Source: Luteimonas padinae (GTDB taxonomy: Bacteria > Pseudomonadota > Gammaproteobacteria > Xanthomonadales > Xanthomonadaceae). Taken from it: a DNA stretch of 64,000 bases. A model generated the notes under the pieces. It was not told where the DNA came from. It saw nothing but the letters and a program-made list of their open reading frames with translations, and did not search any database. The DNA lies in contig NZ_BMZT01000005.1 in NCBI RefSeq assembly GCF_014652935.1, positions 1 to 64,000 on the forward strand. Reading direction: 5' to 3'. Position numbers and translations under genes: made by a program. Below are positions 2,609-54,205 of the stretch, piece by piece; position 1 is the stretch's first letter, and every line of letters starts with the position of its first letter.

Positions 2609-3391
2609 ATGTCGGCAAACCTCACGGTGGCCCGCGAGGGCGCGGTCGCGCGCCTGCGCCTGGACCGCCCCGCCCTGCACAACGCCTTCGACGACGCCCT
2701 GATCGCCGGCCTGACCGATGCGCTGCAGGCGCTGGGCCGCGACCCCACCGTGCGCGCGGTGGTGCTGGAGGGCGCCGGCGCCTCGTTCTCGGCCGGCGCC
2801 GACCTGAACTGGATGCGCGGCATGGCCACCGCCAGCGAGGAGGCCAACCGCGAGGACTCGCTGCGCCTGGCGCGCTTGATGCGCACCCTGGACGAGCTGC
2901 CGAAGCCGACAATCGCCCGCGTCCACGGCGCGGCCTTCGGCGGCGGCGTCGGCCTGGTGGCCTGCTGCGACATCGCCATCGGCGTGCCCGCGGCGAAGTT
3001 CGGCCTGACCGAGAGCCGCCTGGGCCTGCTGCCGGCGGTGATCTCGCCCTACGTCATCAATGCGATCGGCGCCCGCAATGCCCGACGCTATTTCGCCACG
3101 GCCGAGATCTTCGACGCCGCCGAAGCGCAGCGCATCGGACTGCTGCACGACGTGGTGGCCGCGGACGAGCTGGACGCCGCCGTCGACCGCCAGATCGCCC
3201 TGCTGCTGAAGGCCGCGCCCTTCGCCTCCGCAGACGCCAAGCGCCTGGTCCGCGAAGTCGCCGCCGCCCCCGACCGCGACCGCCTCGACCACGACAACGC
3301 CGCCCTCATCGCCGCCCTGCGCGTCTCCCCCGAAGGCCAGGAAGGCCTGGGCGCCTTCCTCGACAAGCGTCCGGCTTCGTGGGTGGAATGA
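2609..3391 (+). CDS. liuC: enoyl-CoA hydratase, probable methylglutaconyl-CoA hydratase LiuC
   Basis: Crotonase-family protein of 260 residues. It shows the oxyanion-hole segments SFSAGADLNWM and HGAAFGGGVGLVACCDIA and the active-site region KFGLTESRLGLLPAVISPYV. The family hydrates many enoyl-CoAs; the specific call comes from position, just upstream of liuD and liuE, where it would hydrate 3-methylglutaconyl-CoA to HMG-CoA in leucine breakdown. The ATG at 2609 is preceded by GAGG. Divergent from feoA. A repeat element lies between it and liuD. Confidence 0.88.
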   Translation: MSANLTVAREGAVARLRLDRPALHNAFDDALIAGLTDALQALGRDPTVRAVVLEGAGASFSAGADLNWMRGMATASEEANREDSLRLARLMRTLDELPKPTIARVHGAAFGGGVGLVACCDIAIGVPAAKFGLTESRLGLLPAVISPYVINAIGARNARRYFATAEIFDAAEAQRIGLLHDVVAADELDAAVDRQIALLLKAAPFASADAKRLVREVAAAPDRDRLDHDNAALIAALRVSPEGQEGLGAFLDKRPASWVE

Positions 3392-3395
3392 CGGA

Positions 3396-3925
3396 AGAGC
3401 ATTTTTTGCCGCGGATGAACGCGGATGGACGCGGATTTTCACGGATAGAGCAAAAGCTGGATTGATGGATGAGGACTTCGCATGGATGCGGATCGCGGTT
3501 CATTGGTGCTTCGGCGGCTGAGTGATCGGGTGATCGGGGCGTTTTTCGATACCTACAACGAGTTGGGGCACGGCTTCCTGGAAAGTGTGTATGAGGCGGC
3601 GCTGGCCGTCCGGCTGCGCGAATGCGGATTGCGGGTGGAGCAGCAGGTGCCCATCGACGTCCGCTTTCACGGTCATGTCGTCGGCCAGTTCCGCGCGGAC
3701 ATGCTGGTCGAGCGTCGGCTGCTCATCGAGATCAAGGCAGCCGTCCAGATCGCCCCCGCCCACGAAGCCCAGCTCCTGAATTACCTCAAGGCGACCCGCG
3801 TGCACCTCGGGCTTCTCTTCAACTTCGGCCCCCGCCCGGAATTCCGCCGCCGCGTTTTCTCTTAGACTCTCCCTGCTTTATCCGTGTAAATCCGCGTCCA
3901 TCCGCGTTCATCCGTGGCCAAAAAA

Positions 3926-3932
<7 letters not shown>
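3396..3932 (+). mobile_element. family A element with long inverted arms carrying a GxxExxY nuclease-like gene
   Basis: A 537-bp unit inserted between liuC and liuD. The left arm (3396-3452) begins AGAGCATTTTTTGCCGCGGA and runs through four GGAT-centred iterons to CACGGATAGAGCA. The right arm (3874-3932) is its near-perfect reverse complement, ending in ATGCTCT. The enclosed cargo is the gene at 3482-3865. I see no clear target duplication. Similar arms occur at five further loci here with other cargo. Calling it mobile is inference from the inverted arms and dispersal; no transposase is encoded. Confidence 0.7.
3482..3865 (+). CDS. GxxExxY family protein, PD-(D/E)XK nuclease-like
   Basis: A 127-residue protein with the diagnostic motif GFLESVYEAAL (G-x-x-E-x-x-Y) near residues 29-39, and a PD-(D/E)XK-type core in which Asp of FRADMLVERRLL is followed by IEIKA (E-x-K). 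The family (TIGR04256; PDDEXK_3 class) is known as stand-alone small proteins of unproven function. Here it fills the interior of an inverted-arm element and is the only gene in it. Codon use is less GC3-biased than neighbouring genes (for example GGATTGCGGGTGGAG), which fits acquired DNA. Nuclease activity is inferred from the motif. Confidence 0.85.
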   Translation: MDADRGSLVLRRLSDRVIGAFFDTYNELGHGFLESVYEAALAVRLRECGLRVEQQVPIDVRFHGHVVGQFRADMLVERRLLIEIKAAVQIAPAHEAQLLNYLKATRVHLGLLFNFGPRPEFRRRVFS

Positions 3933-5935
<2,003 letters not shown>

Positions 5936-9373: not shown

Positions 9374-9462
9374 GAGCGGCTACAGCCGCGGTTGGCCCTC
9401 GCCACGGCCCTGATCGAGGCCCTGATCGCGGCCTCGGTCGCGGCTATAGCCGCTCCTGCAGG
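9367..9462. repeat. family B REP-like inverted pair (CGG variant)
   Basis: Left arm CCTGTAGGAGCGGCTACAGC and its inverse GCCGCTCCTGCAGG enclose about 50 bases that include a short direct duplication (GGCCCTGATCG twice). Each arm contains the self-complementary core GCGGCTACAGCCGC. The TAG of the left arm is the stop codon of the preceding gene. Confidence 0.85.
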
Positions 9463-9504
9463 CGGGCCAGTAAAATCGGGGTTTTCGCTGGTTACGGGAC
9501 CGCC

Positions 9505-10869: not shown

Positions 10870-10968
10870 CCTGTAGGAGTAGCTACAGCCTGCGACCGCT
10901 CTTCCGCGTGGGCAGGCTCTCCCTCCGCGCAGGGCAGCACCGGGTCGCAGCTGTAGCTGCTCCTACAG
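10870..10968. repeat. family B REP-like inverted pair (CAG variant)
   Basis: Arms CCTGTAGGAGTAGCTACAGC and the inverse ending GCAGCTGTAGCTGCTCCTAC face each other across about 50 bases, between the converging yeiP and DUF4105 genes. The left arm has decayed slightly (AGTAG for AGCAG). Confidence 0.82.
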
Positions 10969-11017
10969 CGGTTACAGCGGTTACAGGGGTTACAGGGGTT
11001 ACAGGGGTTACAGGGGA
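10964..11017. repeat. 9-bp tandem repeat, six units
   Basis: Six consecutive units of TACAGCGGT/TACAGGGGT begin inside the last bases (CTACAG) of the family B arm, suggesting slippage from that terminus. The minus-strand stop codon TAA of the DUF4105 gene is formed at a unit junction (11008-11010), and the same stop recurs in each further unit. Confidence 0.85.
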
Positions 11018-16036: not shown

Positions 16037-16283
16037 AAGCTTTTTTGCCACGGATCACGCGGATGACGCGGATTGCACGGATAGAGCAGAGCGCTGTTCA
16101 TGCTCTCCTGTAGGAGCAGCTATACCTGCGCCCCCCTGGCGCCGCACTTTTCTCCTGCAGGAGCAGTTGCAGCTGCGACCTCCGGTATCGCACACCGTTT
16201 CGCAGCTGTAGCTGCTCCTACAGGGCAGCGCGGCTCTATCCGTGCAAATCCGCGTCATCCGCGTAATCCGTGGCAAAGCTTTT
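16037..16283. repeat. family A arms enclosing a family B REP cluster
   Basis: The left arm (16037-16090), AGCTTTTTTGCCACGGAT then iterons to CACGGATAGAGCA, and the right arm (16234-16283), CTATCCGTGCAAATC ... ATCCGTGGCAAAGCTT, are inverted copies. Between them lie three family B arms. This composite fills the whole gap between serA and the NUDIX gene. Confidence 0.82.
16107..16224. repeat. family B REP cluster, three arms (CAG variant)
   Basis: Arms at 16107-16130 (CCTGTAGGAGCAGCTATACC) and 16154-16180 (CCTGCAGGAGCAGTTGCAGC), and an inverted arm at 16201-16224 (GCAGCTGTAGCTGCTCCTAC). The first arm is degenerate. They sit inside family A arms. Confidence 0.8.
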
Positions 16284-19869: not shown

Positions 19870-19977
19870 AGAGCTTTTTTGCCACGGATCACGCAGATCA
19901 AAGCAGATGGGCCGAGGCGAACGCGCCGCCATCCACTATCTGCTCCTATCCGCGTGATCCGTGGCAGAAAATGCTCT
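19870..19977. repeat. short family A element
   Basis: A 108-bp unit running from AGAGCTTTTTTGCCACGGAT to the inverse ATCCGTGGCAGAAAATGCTC. The interior is about 45 bases with no gene. It lies between the APC permease and mtnB, and the termini match those of the 3396-3932 element. Confidence 0.78.
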
Positions 19978-21324: not shown

Positions 21325-21408
21325 CGGAAGTCAGAAGCTCTTGCCACGGATCACGCGGATGACGCGGACTCACACGGGTAGAGCAGAAGCCGTCATGCGG
21401 GAAAGCGC

Positions 21409-21540
21409 CCTGTAGGAGCAGCTACAGCTGCGACCTGCAGCGAGCCGCCGGCCGCAAACCGCCAACCACCAGTCGCCAGTCGCCAGTCGCCAGTCGCCAG
21501 TCGCCAGTCGCCGAAGGTCGCAGCTGTAGCTGCTCCTACA
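21409..21540. repeat. family B REP-like inverted pair (CAG variant)
   Basis: Left arm CCTGTAGGAGCAGCTACAGC then TGCGACC, and right arm GGTCGCAGCTGTAGCTGCTC then CTACA. The two arms are perfect inverses over about 24 bases. The loop holds the CCAGTCG tandem repeat. Confidence 0.87.
21469..21510. repeat. 7-bp tandem repeat CCAGTCG, six units
   Basis: Six perfect CCAGTCG units within the loop of the family B pair. It is preceded by degenerate copies (CCGCCAACCA). A likely variable-number repeat. Confidence 0.88.
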
Positions 21541-21605
21541 AAAAGCAAGTGCTTTATCCGTGTAAATTCGCGTCATCCGCGTTCATCCGTGGCAAAAGAG
21601 CTTTT

Positions 21606-22298: not shown

Positions 22299-22315
22299 CA
22301 CGAAGCCGAACGCTT

Positions 22316-22384
22316 CTGCAGGAGCGGTTACAGCCGCGACCGCTTGTCCAGGCGGCTGGTCGCGGCTGTAGCCGCTCCTACAGG
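22316..22384. repeat. family B REP-like inverted pair (CGG variant)
   Basis: CTGCAGGAGCGGTTACAGCC then GCGACC, 17 bases, then GGTCGCGGCTGTAGCCGCTC then CTACAGG. It lies between the converging mtnC and phosphoesterase genes and could also act as a transcript-end hairpin, but has no T-run. Confidence 0.86.
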
Positions 22385-22390
22385 GATGGT

Positions 22391-25976: not shown

Positions 25977-26109
25977 CCTGCAGGAGCCGCTGCAGCTGCG
26001 ACCGCCGGTTGGATGCAGGAGCAGCTATAGCTGCGACCTGCCTGCCATGCGTAACAGCGACCGGCCGGCCATGCGGATCAGCGGTCGCAGCTGTAGCTGC
26101 TCCTACAGG
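25977..26109. repeat. family B REP cluster, three arms (CAG variant)
   Basis: Arms start CCTGCAGGAGCCGCTGCAGC (25977) and ATGCAGGAGCAGCTATAGCT (26013); the inverted arm is GGTCGCAGCTGTAGCTGCTC then CTACAGG (to 26109). The inverted arm supplies the stop codon of the minus-strand gene ending at 26103. Confidence 0.83.
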
Positions 26110-26474
26110 CGGGGGCGGGGGTGGCGCTTGCGCTCGGCGATGAGCCAGGCCAAGGCGACGCCAGCCAGCGCGCCGATGACTTCCATCAGCACGCGGATGC
26201 CAAGCCCGTCCGGATCGTGGATCTTCGACAGCGCGATGCGCGCGTAAACCGGCGACTCGAGCCTGACCACGCCCATGTAGAACAAGTGCCAGGCATCGAT
26301 GCCGGCGCCGACCGCCACCGCGACCAGACTGGCCCAGCCGATCGCGTGTCCGTGCGGCCAGCGCGCGCGCGTGCCGATGGCGTGGAACAGCGCGAAGGCC
26401 AGCAGGCCGACCACCAGCGCGATCAGGCCCGCCTCCAGCGCACCCGGCCAGCCCAGGTGCAGGGGCAGGTTCAA
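26103..26474 (-). CDS. hypothetical small membrane protein coupled to the lyase gene
   Basis: About 123 residues with three or four hydrophobic segments (GLIALVVGLLAFALFHAIG; AIGWASLVAVAVGAG; VLMEVIGALAGVALAWLIAE). No ATG is available near the lyase end. The best start is a TTG at 26474 that overlaps the lyase stop (TTGA), implying coupled translation. No family recognised. The stop TAG belongs to the family B repeat. An inner-membrane transport or accessory role for the lyase is only a guess. Confidence 0.6.
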   Translation of the reverse strand: MNLPLHLGWPGALEAGLIALVVGLLAFALFHAIGTRARWPHGHAIGWASLVAVAVGAGIDAWHLFYMGVVRLESPVYARIALSKIHDPDGLGIRVLMEVIGALAGVALAWLIAERKRHPRPRL

Positions 26475-39705: not shown

Positions 39706-39782
39706 CCTGCAGGAGCGGCTACAGCCGCGACCGATGTAGCCTTGCGCAGGATCCGGTCGCGGCTGTAGCCGCTCCTACAGGG
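39706..39782. repeat. family B REP-like inverted pair (CGG variant)
   Basis: CCTGCAGGAGCGGCTACAGC then CGCGACC, a 24-base loop, then GGTCGCGGCTGTAGCCGCTC then CTACAGGG. It lies between argC and argH; its right arm contains the argC stop codon. Confidence 0.88.
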
Positions 39783-40785
39783 TGGGTGTGGGCGCTGAAT
39801 CGGAGGGAATGCCTTCGATCTCGGGGTAGCCGAACGCGAGGTTGAGGTTCTGCAGCGCCTGCGTCGCCGCGCCCTTGAGCAGGTTGTCGAGGGTGGCGAC
39901 GACGACCAGGCGGCGGCCGTCCTCCGACACCGTGAAGCCGCCGATCTCCACGCCGTGCCTGCCGGCGATGCGGCTCACCCAGGGCGCTTCGGTGCTCACG
40001 CGCACCAGCGGTTCGTGCTCGTAGCGCGCGCGGTACGCCGCCTCCACCGCCTCGGCCGTCACCGGCTCGTACAGGTGCATGTTCGCGGTCAGGGTGATGC
40101 CGCGGAAATGCGGAGCGACGTGCGGCATGAACTCCACGTCGTGGCCGAGGTGGCGGGTGACCTCGCGCTCGTGCACGTGGCCGGCCAGCGCGTAGGGCAT
40201 GAGGTTGTCGCGCAGCTTGTCGGCGTCGTTGCGATCGGACGGCGTGGTCCCGGCGCCGGAATAGCCGGATACGCCGAAGCACTGCACCGGGCCGTCGAGC
40301 AGGCCCAGCATCGGCGCCAGCGCCAGCTGCATGGCGCTGGCATAGCAGCCGGGGTTGGCGATGCGGCGCTGGCCCGTGTAGCCGCCGCGCGTGAGCTCGG
40401 GCAGGCCGTAGTACCAGTCGCCGTCGAAGCGGTGGTCGGCGGACAGGTCGACGATCACCGGCCCCGCCGGCGGTGCCGCGGCAACGTCCGCGGCCGGCTC
40501 GACGGAGCCGTCCGCTGCGGCCAGCGAGGTGATGCACGCCTCCGACTTGCCGTTCGGCAGCGCCAGCACCCAGGCGTCCAGGCCCAGGTCGGCCAGGTCG
40601 TCATGCGCGAGGCTGCGGTAGCGCAGCCCGCCGCGGTACTCGGGCACGTGGTCGGCCACGCGCTGGCCGTCGAGCTCGCGCGAGGACACCGCGGCCAGTT
40701 CGAAGCCGGGATGCCCGGCCAGCAGCCGGATCAGCTCCGCGCCAGTGTGCCCGCGCGCGCCGACGATGCCGACGGTCTTCTTCAT
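39775..40785 (-). CDS. argC: N-acetyl-gamma-glutamyl-phosphate reductase ArgC
   Basis: 336 residues. The NADP-binding start [20 protein letters not shown] and the catalytic Cys in [14 protein letters not shown] are plain, with the conserved SGYSGAG loop. It reduces N-acetylglutamyl phosphate. The start overlaps the NAGS/kinase stop (ATGA). The C-terminal residues after the conserved [10 protein letters not shown] are irregular ([14 protein letters not shown]) and end at a TAG lent by the repeat. Confidence 0.96.
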
Positions 40786-42136: not shown

Positions 42137-42346
42137 TTGCTTTTGTTTTTGCCACGGATGAACGCGGATTTGCACGGATAGAGCAACAGCTTTTTTGGCC
42201 ACGGATTTGCGCGGATCACGCGGATCTGGCTGAGGCGAGCGCCAGCGCCGCGCACAGGCACAACATTCTTCTTTCAATCAGATCTTTCGCATCGGACTTG
42301 CCTCGGCTGGATCCGCGTCATCCGCGTTCATCAGTGGCAGATCTCT
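42137..42346. repeat. family A half-element plus nested A-prime element
   Basis: A left arm (42137-42187, TTTTTGCCACGGATGAACGC ... CACGGATAGAGCA) is followed at 42188-42346 by a second, longer type: TTTTTTGGCCACGGATTTGC ... CGCGGATCTGGC, an interior of about 85 bases, and the inverse ATCCGCGTCATCCGCG ... AGTGGCAGATCTCT. The second unit is similar to 53964-54124. Its right end encodes the argE C-terminus and stop. Confidence 0.78.
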
Positions 42347-44690: not shown

Positions 44691-44771
44691 CCTGTAGGAG
44701 CAGCTATAGCTGCGACCACAAGAGCAGGACGGCGTCGGAGGAGCGGTCGCAGCTGTAGCTGCTCCTACAGG
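44691..44771. repeat. family B REP-like inverted pair (CAG variant)
   Basis: CCTGTAGGAGCAGCTATAGC then TGCGACC, a 27-base loop, then GGTCGCAGCTGTAGCTGCTC then CTACAG. It lies between argG and argF', inside the arg cluster. Confidence 0.88.
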
Positions 44772-44811
44772 GGGGTGACGGGGTGACGGGAAAGGAATGG
44801 ACGCCGGGAAC

Positions 44812-49883: not shown

Positions 49884-49954
49884 CCTTGTGGGAGCAGCTA
49901 CCGCTGCGACCTGCCGTTTCCGCAGTCCGGGTCGCAGCGGTAGCTGCTCCTACA
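49884..49954. repeat. family B REP-like inverted pair (CCG variant)
   Basis: CCTTGTGGGAGCAGCTACCG then CTGCGACC, a loop, then GGGTCGCAGCGGTAGCTGCT then CCTACAA. Both arms carry the same altered core (CTACCGCTG), so the change was made in both. Confidence 0.85.
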
Positions 49955-49992
49955 ATGGAGAGCGAGGCGTGGTCGGAGTGGGCGCGGAAACG

Positions 49993-50042: not shown

Positions 50043-51062
50043 TCAGTCGCCGATCTGCTTCTGCAGGTGCTCCCAGCGCTCCTGCTCGTCGATGGTGCGC
50101 TCGGCGGTGAGGCGGGCCTCGAGGCGGTCCAGGCCGATCTCCTCGCCGGAGTCGACGCTGTAGCCGTATTCGCCGGAGTCGACGCGCTTGAGCGTGCTGT
50201 CGATCTTGCCGATCAGCTTGCGGTAGCGGTCGCGGGTGCGCAGCTCCAGCGAGTTCTCGGTCTCGCGGGTGGCGCGCTCGGCGTCGTCGCCGACGTCACG
50301 CACCTCGTCCTTGAGGTTCTCGATGGTCTGCTTGGACTCCTCCACCAGGTCCGCGCGCCAGTCCAGCAGGCGCTGGCGGAAGTACTCCAGCTGCAGCGGG
50401 CTCATGTACTCCTCGTCCGCGCCGGGCTTGTAGCCCGCCGGCAGGATCGGGCGCCCGGTGGCCTCGTCGGTCTTGTAGGGAATGGTCTTGTAGCGCGGCT
50501 TCGGCGCGGGCGCCTGCGGCTGGCGGCTGGTCACGGCCTTGGCCACCTTGGCACCGCGACGGGCGGGCGCCTGGCGCGGCGCCGGCGTCGGCACCGGCGC
50601 GACCTTGGTCGAGGGCTTGGCGGTGGCCTTGCGGGCCGGCGCGGACGCCTTGGCCGGCGCGGGCGGGGCCTTGGCCACCGCCTTCTTCAGCGTCGCGGCG
50701 GGCACGGGCGACTTCGCGGTCGCCTTCGGCGCCGGCGCCTTGGCCACCGCGACCTTCTTCGCCACGGGCGCCTTGGCCGGGGCCTTCTTCACCGCCACCT
50801 TCTTCACCGCCGCCTTCTTCGCGGGCGCGGCCTTCTTCGTCGCGACCTTCTTCGCGGTGGTCTTCACCGGCGCCTTCTTCGCCGCGGCCTTGGCCGGGGC
50901 GGCCGTCTTCCCGGCCGGGGCCTTGCCCACCACCTTCTTCGCGGCTGCCTTCTTCGCGGCGGCCTTCTTCACCGCGGCCTTGGCCGGGGCGGCCTTCGTG
51001 GCCTTCTTCGCTGCGGGCTTGGCCGCCTTGGCGGCCTTCTTGACGGTCTTCTTCACTGCCAC
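50043..51062 (-). CDS. dksA: DksA-family RNA polymerase regulator with Lys/Ala-rich extension
   Basis: 339 residues. The N-terminal two thirds are repeats of AKKA/APAKAA type, histone-H1-like and probably nucleic-acid binding. The C-terminal DksA part keeps the coiled-coil tip DVGDDAERA (D-x-x-D-x-A) that enters the polymerase secondary channel. The zinc finger is without Cys: YGYSVDSGEEIG and LTAERTIDEQ replace the usual four. Works with ppGpp in related proteins. Start GTG at 51062, preceded by AGAAGGA. Confidence 0.9.
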   Translation of the reverse strand: MAVKKTVKKAAKAAKPAAKKATKAAPAKAAVKKAAAKKAAAKKVVGKAPAGKTAAPAKAAAKKAPVKTTAKKVATKKAAPAKKAAVKKVAVKKAPAKAPVAKKVAVAKAPAPKATAKSPVPAATLKKAVAKAPPAPAKASAPARKATAKPSTKVAPVPTPAPRQAPARRGAKVAKAVTSRQPQAPAPKPRYKTIPYKTDEATGRPILPAGYKPGADEEYMSPLQLEYFRQRLLDWRADLVEESKQTIENLKDEVRDVGDDAERATRETENSLELRTRDRYRKLIGKIDSTLKRVDSGEYGYSVDSGEEIGLDRLEARLTAERTIDEQERWEHLQKQIGD

Positions 51063-51259
51063 GTTCGGCGATCCTTCTGGGACAAGTGGGCGCCGGCGCG
51101 CTGACACGCGGCCGGCCGCCGGCCATGCAGCGGGAGCGGGGCATTCACCGACGTGGCCGCATGGCGGCGACGATTGACGTGTCCGGCCACCGGGAGCGCC
51201 CCGGAGGGCGCGCGAGTGGCCGGCGCCACACTCCCGTTGCTTGGACGGGAAAGCGGGGT

Positions 51260-53909: not shown

Positions 53910-54205
53910 CAGAAGACTTGCCACGGATGACGCGGATTTACACGGATAGAGCGAAAAGAGGAAAAAAGCTCATTGGCCACGGATTTGCGCGGATTACGCG
54001 GATCTGGCAGGGGCAAGTGCCAGCACCGCGCGCTGCACAAGCCTTCTTCTCCGGGTGAATCATTGGTATCAGTCTTGCCTCGGCCAGATCCGCATAATCC
54101 GCGCAAATCCGTGGCAAAAAAGCTCTTCGCTCTTCCTCTCTCTGCCTTTTCTGCTCTATCCGTGTAAATCCGCGTCCATCCGCGTCATCCGTGGCAAAAA
54201 AGCTA
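53910..54205. repeat. family A element with a nested A-prime element
   Basis: Outer arms: 53910-53952 (AGAAGACTTGCCACGGATGA ... CACGGATAGAGC) and 54152-54205 (GCTCTATCCGTGTAAATC ... CCGTGGCAAAAAAGCT). Between them lies a complete second element, 53964-54124, from AAAAAAGCTCATTGGCCACG to GTGGCAAAAAAGCTCT with CGCGGATCTGGC inner arms. This fills the 300-base gap between the M23 and YiiX-like genes; no gene is present. Confidence 0.82.

Follow-up and report, generated by a model that had tools for sequence, protein, structure and literature searches.

A GxxExxY nuclease-like gene between inverted word-array arms in Luteimonas padinae as candidate core of a two-part DNA element

What does a small gene enclosed by two long inverted arms have to do with those arms, when the arm sequence also occurs elsewhere in the same genome with no gene between its copies? 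The locus that raises this question lies in Luteimonas padinae, in a window of 64,000 nucleotides, which is the whole stretch of DNA analyzed here. A gene for a protein of 127 amino acids (3482..3865, plus strand) stands between a left arm at 3402..3452 (plus strand), built of CRCGGAT-word units spaced about 10 bp apart, and a right arm at 3874..3924 (minus strand), which abuts the downstream gene. The neighboring genes, given as context only, encode an enoyl-CoA hydratase/isomerase upstream (2609..3391, plus strand; PF00378, E 1.3e-49) and a methylcrotonyl-CoA carboxylase-like biotin subunit downstream (3926..5935, plus strand; PF00289, PF02786, PF21139). A first-pass annotation had described the arms as near-perfect inverses of 57 and 59 bases. 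This description held for 51 nt, over which positions 3402-3452 and 3874-3924 are 92% complementary without a gap, while the longer lengths extend into ragged ends. The explanation towards which we cautiously lean is that of a two-part DNA element, composed of a nuclease gene with word-array arms and of gene-less arm pairs, in which the nuclease would act on its own arms.

The annotated identity of the gene, a GxxExxY protein with a D-ExK nuclease core, was borne out by family models. The protein matches TIGR04256 GxxExxY (E 2e-37; 128.1 bits, above the curated cut-off of 35) as well as PF13366 PDDEXK_3 (E 1.1e-38; 132.6 bits, above the cut-off of 22), the latter being its sole Pfam match. The GxxExxY motif (G31, E34, Y37) and the D...ExK core (D73, E83, K85) are both found in the protein and, like Q97 and Y101, do not vary among 59 aligned sequences. 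Sequence searches against solved structures gave a best match of only E 0.73, PADLOC and PHROGs returned weak matches alone (E 0.03-0.39), and Cas4 models matched the protein sequence at no better than E 0.03. The AlphaFold model of the protein (pLDDT 94.7, pTM 0.87) is closest among solved folds to SSO0001 (4ic1; Foldseek E 1.2e-4; VIA Z 10.0, rmsd 3.7 over 99 residues), which we take to be a Cas4, while lambda-type exonucleases and Hjc (1gef; Z 6.9, rmsd 3.7 over 86) rank below it in structure scores. As modeled, the protein is a member of the PD-(D/E)XK superfamily by fold and is in this respect like Cas4, lambda exonuclease and Hjc. Cas4 proteins carry a four-cysteine iron-sulphur cluster; since the 127-residue sequence holds one cysteine, it has no such cluster. 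The gene occurs once in the whole L. padinae genome, and the named relatives nearest to its product among the best 80 of at least 579 are Luteimonas proteins with 85% and 73% identity. With dN/dS values of 0.02-0.23 in 15 Luteimonas pairs (dS being saturated in several), the gene is, judging by these ratios, under purifying selection. The GxxExxY family is mentioned only in passing in the available text of PMC8934634, PMC12085832 and PMC9756366, and no paper tying GxxExxY genes to arms was found among the openly accessible papers searched.

The reported recurrence of the arm sequence at five other loci of the window could be confirmed, as all five were located and none is assigned to a strand. 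They comprise gene-less arm pairs at 16049..16272 (site empty in genomes G158, G191 and G161), 19883..19963 and 21345..21591 (empty in G192, G191 and G161), nested gene-less arms at 42153..42326, where one arm type lies within another, and nested gene-less arm pairs at 53922..54193 (empty in G164, G192 and G191). A loose arm core matches 29 times in the window compared to a shuffled mean of 13.57 (sd 3.76), and none of 100 shuffles reaches 29. Genome-wide, three-unit arms gave 77 + 62 matches and the reversed pattern 0, placing gene-less arms at dozens of places beside the one gene copy. Rfam at gathering threshold returned nothing but a tRNA from the window. A second repeat family consists of REP-like palindromes (GGTCGCAGCTGTAGCTGCTCCTACAGG), located in the window at 9436-9468, 10943-10975, 16107-16230, 21409-21548, 22315-22390, 25977-26115, 39706-39787, 44691-44777 and 49885-49962; some pairs of these lie within the loops of gene-less arm pairs, namely those at 16049..16272 and 21345..21591. 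The window also holds a low-complexity repeat with a 15-bp period at 50687-51071, whose minus strand we presume to encode an alanine/lysine-rich repeat protein.

The check proposed in the first-pass annotation, a search for flanking arms at GxxExxY genes of relatives, was run on one genome per species, using the best 80 of at least 579 loci; because these were picked by their likeness to six family proteins, most of them arm-bearing, the 80 loci lean towards this lineage. Inward arm doublets on both sides were found at 55 of the best 80 of at least 579 GxxExxY loci and at none of 400 control intervals. On at least one side they were found at 70 of these best 80 of at least 579, compared to 50 of 400 controls, and ungapped inverted repeats scoring at least 15 at 48 of the same 80, compared to 6 of 397 control intervals. 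Within this best 80 of at least 579, the 55 two-sided loci cover 12 named phyla, and two-sided arms are missing at five of seven loci in Ignavibacteriota, five of nine in Planctomycetota and both in Armatimonadota. Likewise, 48 of 58 extra Acidobacteriota genes, taken from the top of a family-model match list, have inverted repeats scoring at least 15. Across 150 gene loci, which count two places twice (L033/L060 and L144/L045), arms were detected by at least one of the two measures in 112 and by neither in 38. At the family level the gene is present in 10 of 149 genomes, eight of which have flanking arms by inspection (absent in G128 and G126), and it is interrupted or split in G036, G084 and G099. 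Two loci on viral contigs both have arms, one with a different word; phage records contain no match to the gene and plasmid records eight, every one below 60% identity. At the level of sequence, the association of gene and arms extends over many phyla. Most of the loci examined bear arms, and a general lack of arms, the first outcome that the first-pass annotation had named as speaking against it, was not observed.

The arms consist of tandem 8-10 bp units in which CRC is followed by NRAK. When the four letters after CRC were called de novo, with copies required on both sides, a code could be called at 75 of the 150 loci, and all 75 fit N-[GA]-A-[TG] (GGAT 26, AGAG 19, AGAT 14, others 16), compared to 18 calls in 470 control intervals, none of NRAK form. 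Units with T-ending codes are mostly spaced 10 or 9 bp apart, those with G-ending codes mostly 8 or 9. The last code letter changes only twice on the protein tree, compared to 23.8 times when shuffled (minimum of 300 shuffles, 19), and the full code 21 times compared to 42.7 (minimum 36); in Acidobacteriota only, with 37 labeled tips, there is one change compared to 8.1 (minimum 4). The second code letter alone was unclustered on the protein tree (5 changes compared to 6.8 shuffled). Separate genes within one genome bear separate codes in both G198 and G302, which, together with the agreement between code and tree, indicates that the word is tied to the lineage of the protein rather than to that of the host. 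This match between word and clade fits recognition of the word by the protein; gene and arms inherited as one block would, however, look alike. The protein columns that best split T from G codes are 120, 104, 32, 100 and 22, but since there are only two clades they are no proof of contact.

Words of this kind have been described before in another context. Paired opposite-strand sites with three to five tandem 7-9 nt repeats were reported in Geobacter metallireducens as putative global regulator sites and attributed possibly to IHF/HU proteins (PMC2700814). The class 2 consensus given there, TCTCCGTS[Y], reads CACGGAG on the opposite strand when S is G and so corresponds to the GGAG code; the sites were interpreted as regulator sites, and no link to GxxExxY genes is drawn in the available text of that paper (PMC2700814). 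One may ask whether arm pairs are bound by a global regulator or nucleoid protein of the host, with the nuclease gene either hitch-hiking or encoding a cognate binder without cutting activity. The Geobacter proposal speaks for this (PMC2700814), but such a regulator would hardly be expected to leave arms next to nuclease genes of 12 named phyla (among the best 80 of at least 579 relatives) or to keep the putative catalytic residues invariant in 59 sequences, and we hold this explanation to be very unlikely.

An element in which the nuclease acts on its own arms also raises the question of whether gene-less arms depend on the gene. Among 52 Luteimonas genomes eight have the gene, in single copy in each, with 139, 134, 126, 94, 58, 28, 4 and 2 three-unit arm matches, compared to 15, 12 and then 0-2 in the remaining 42 of the 44 gene-free genomes. 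When arm-rich genomes are defined as those with at least 20 such matches, they make up six of eight with the gene and none of 44 without it; G191 and G190 have the gene, yet only 4 and 2 matches. A similar trend was found in Acidobacteriota, where 73 of 199 genomes have the gene: 18 of 73 gene carriers are arm-rich compared to none of 126 other genomes, and 41 of 73 compared to 19 of 126 have any arm match. The searched pattern is absent from 32 of the 73 gene-bearing genomes, partly because other codes exist. Among the 149 genomes of the family the arm-rich are three of 10 with the gene and one of 139 without it, and 29 of 32 gene-bearing genomes from the best 80 of at least 579 loci have at least one arm match, in a set that holds no gene-free control. 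The pairing of sampled arms follows the same direction, with 15 of 28 well paired in G192 and G169, which have the gene, compared to 4 of 22 in G161 and G173, which do not (p 0.018). Adding G000, the window genome (44 of 54, from a list of loci sorted by match quality), brings the gene side to 59 of 82 (Fisher 9.5e-6). Judged from these counts, gene-less arms are abundant almost exclusively in genomes that carry the gene. The earlier claim that the gene-less copies are dependent on the gene is thus upheld in so far as abundance and pairing track the gene, but not throughout, since arms also match in genomes where no gene was found (G020, 25; G147, 17; G027, 12; G137, 9).

The history of the sites themselves suggests little recent movement. 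Of the eight gene-bearing Luteimonas genomes, seven have the gene at this one site, as does L. lumbrici, which indicates that it has largely stayed in place in this group; the copy in G190 lacks both neighbor genes within 1.5 kb. Twenty stretches of the orthologous site were fetched, of which 19 hold both neighbors: three have the gene, one a remnant, nine only 7-78 bp between the neighbors, and six other sequence. In G161 the gene was lost, while its last codons and the right arm persist at the site. Among the six with other sequence, the site in G168 (L167) has a 247-bp intergene with an arm-like stretch and no gene, a possible remnant. In five other Luteimonas loci (L155, L157, L162, L163 and L166) a different small open frame, putatively of VOC type, occupies the GxxExxY site. 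A separate origin of gene and arms, which the first-pass annotation had named as the finding that would speak against it, was followed at this site alone, with neither gene nor arms at nine of 19 sites and the arm-like stretch standing by itself in G168. Each of the five gene-less window sites is common to at least one other species, suggesting that recent movement is rare; the sites are empty in some species and have different arm types in others.

However rare, movement as a unit may be visible in one pair of Acidobacteriota loci from two genomes, L292 and L294, which share 81.7% identity over 497 bp. Their homology stops -2 to +4 bp from the outer arm ends, and blastn found no further match in roughly 0.5 kb of flank per side, so the element can, to judge by this one pair, occupy dissimilar sites as a self-contained unit. 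Unlike in a MITE, no target duplication was seen at L292/L294. A search for target duplications that covered both occupied and empty sites, G164 among the latter, did not fix the ends of the element. In two further pairs, each within one genome (L286/L290 and L211/L212), flanks are unlike and homology is not bounded by the arms. A different picture was obtained in G198, where 20 near-identical gene-less copies (L191-L210) lie inside a MITE that has its own TAGGGCC-type ends and bears CRCNGAT arms internally. Exact 9-bp duplications flanking the MITE ends are legible in three of the 20 (L196, L206 and L207), which indicates that some arm copies were multiplied by another transposon. These copies are what would be expected if arms in general were spread in trans by ordinary transposases in the manner of MITEs, with the nuclease gene as one passenger of several. 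Such an origin would, however, leave unexplained that, in two unrelated groups, arm counts go with the presence of the GxxExxY gene and that the word follows the nuclease clade, and the homology of L292 and L294, stopping at the arms, leaves no further outer ends in common; as a general account it appears improbable.

Genes of TIGR02436, which we take to be a family of 23S rRNA intervening-sequence proteins, were chosen as a negative control for arms. Thirty loci of these four-helix-bundle genes from Acidobacteriota (L321-L350) were selected and two, cut short, were dropped. As a negative control the family failed: a lone small gene lies between inverted arms of tandem short words at 25 of 28 tested loci, with a best period of 7 or 14 bp in 17 of the 25 and the CRC+NRAK word in none of the 28. 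The layout is alike, whereas the protein is unrelated and the words are different, so that a single layout accompanies two unrelated proteins, which differ in their words. The case that arms generally need a nuclease is thereby weakened, and that for a broader class strengthened. The earlier proposal that the nuclease spreads its arms met with evidence on both sides, being favored by the association of gene and arms, and disfavored by the old age of the five window sites, the G198 copies that ride in a MITE and the similar arms of TIGR02436.

In addition to their presence, the two arms of an element change together. The left arm compared with the reverse-complemented right arm of the same element gave 0.905 (25 elements) versus 0.79 when one and the same arm was compared across species (50 comparisons), and in 63 of 74 cases an arm was nearer to its own partner than to the orthologous arm. 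At the gene site, compared across eight genomes, both partners have changed in 15 of 51 arm pairs, with 22 such cells compared to 6.7 shuffled, a count that leaves out the misaligned left arm of G169. Further pair types at this site gave no such excess (23 compared to 20.1 shuffled; 53 of 500 shuffles as high). The loop of the pair at 19883..19963 is inverted in G000 relative to G192. Covarying arms, a stable predicted RNA fold of the gene element (z -8.08) and the same layout at TIGR02436 genes could also be understood if the element were an RNA stem-loop like the intervening sequences of 23S rRNA, in which the arms of the transcript pair, RNase III trims them and an operon thus tolerates the insertion, the protein not acting on the arms. 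For S23, an ORF within a stem-loop that RNase III excises has been described (PMC4990558). Unlike those sequences, the GxxExxY element lies between two protein genes and not in rRNA. An RNA stem moreover predicts an excess of G.U pairs, whereas sense-strand arm mismatches comprise 271 G.U and 260 A.C (116 of 150 elements), and code and protein clade co-segregate; on these grounds we consider RNA-stem selection an unlikely driver of the covariation between arms, and the stem-loop explanation as a whole unlikely as well. The lack of a G.U excess makes arm-to-arm conversion, or replacement by another copy, the more likely source of the matched change, and a DNA-level process is likely to underlie the paired change of the arms.

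Among known systems the proposed two-part element with a nuclease acting on its own arms resembles REPIN/RAYT (TnpA-REP), where a gene with its own nearby repeats is accompanied by many gene-less inverted pairs with predicted hairpins and protein and repeat covary (PMC3116915, PMC8266576). The GxxExxY gene likewise is flanked by its own repeats, has many gene-less inverted pairs and shows covariation of protein and repeat. In contrast to RAYT, its product is a PD-(D/E)XK protein, with PDDEXK_3 as sole Pfam match, and no HUH tyrosine nuclease, and unlike those of REPINs its arms are arrays of 8-10 bp words and not REP palindromes. RAYT genes typically occur once per genome and are passed on vertically. 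Multicopy pairs of inverted repeats with no gene between them also characterize MITEs and foldback elements, the latter having arms with subrepeats. However, the GxxExxY element differs from an insertion sequence or MITE in that no DDE, Y, S or HUH recombinase gene, but only PDDEXK_3, lies between its arms.

In the explanation that we favor, the first part of the element would be a 0.5-kb unit, in which a small PD-(D/E)XK gene of Cas4/Hjc-like fold lies between inverted word-array arms, and the second part a population of gene-less arm pairs. The nuclease would recognize its own word array, perhaps with one protomer per word, and may act on the arm pair as a duplex or as a hairpin or cruciform. 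A resulting break or nick could be repaired from the opposite arm or from another copy, and such repair would preserve the match between the arms, now and then invert or exchange a loop, and gradually give rise to new copies, the cutting and the spreading both being putative activities of the predicted nuclease. In Luteimonas the gene would long since have become fixed in place, with gene-less pairs scattered over the genome, much as RAYT genes are arranged with their REPINs.

The pattern of gene and arms may point to a so far unrecognized kind of minimal DNA element, and it provides a common gene family of unknown role with a concrete candidate substrate, its own arms. We consider it possible, without going so far as to lean towards it, that GxxExxY elements form their own class of recombinase-free minimal mobile DNA, with a word-reading nuclease, a lineage-specific code, templated arm-to-arm repair and gene-less satellites, and that TIGR02436 elements form a parallel class, the two together explaining many of the paired tandem-repeat sites in bacterial genomes that lack an explanation. 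If true, widespread paired tandem repeats, which in one instance were published as putative global-regulator sites, would be products of a nuclease-linked element, and DNA repeats would have a recombinase-free route to persist. For the study of arm-to-arm conversion in bacteria, the concerted change of the paired arms gives a direct point of entry.
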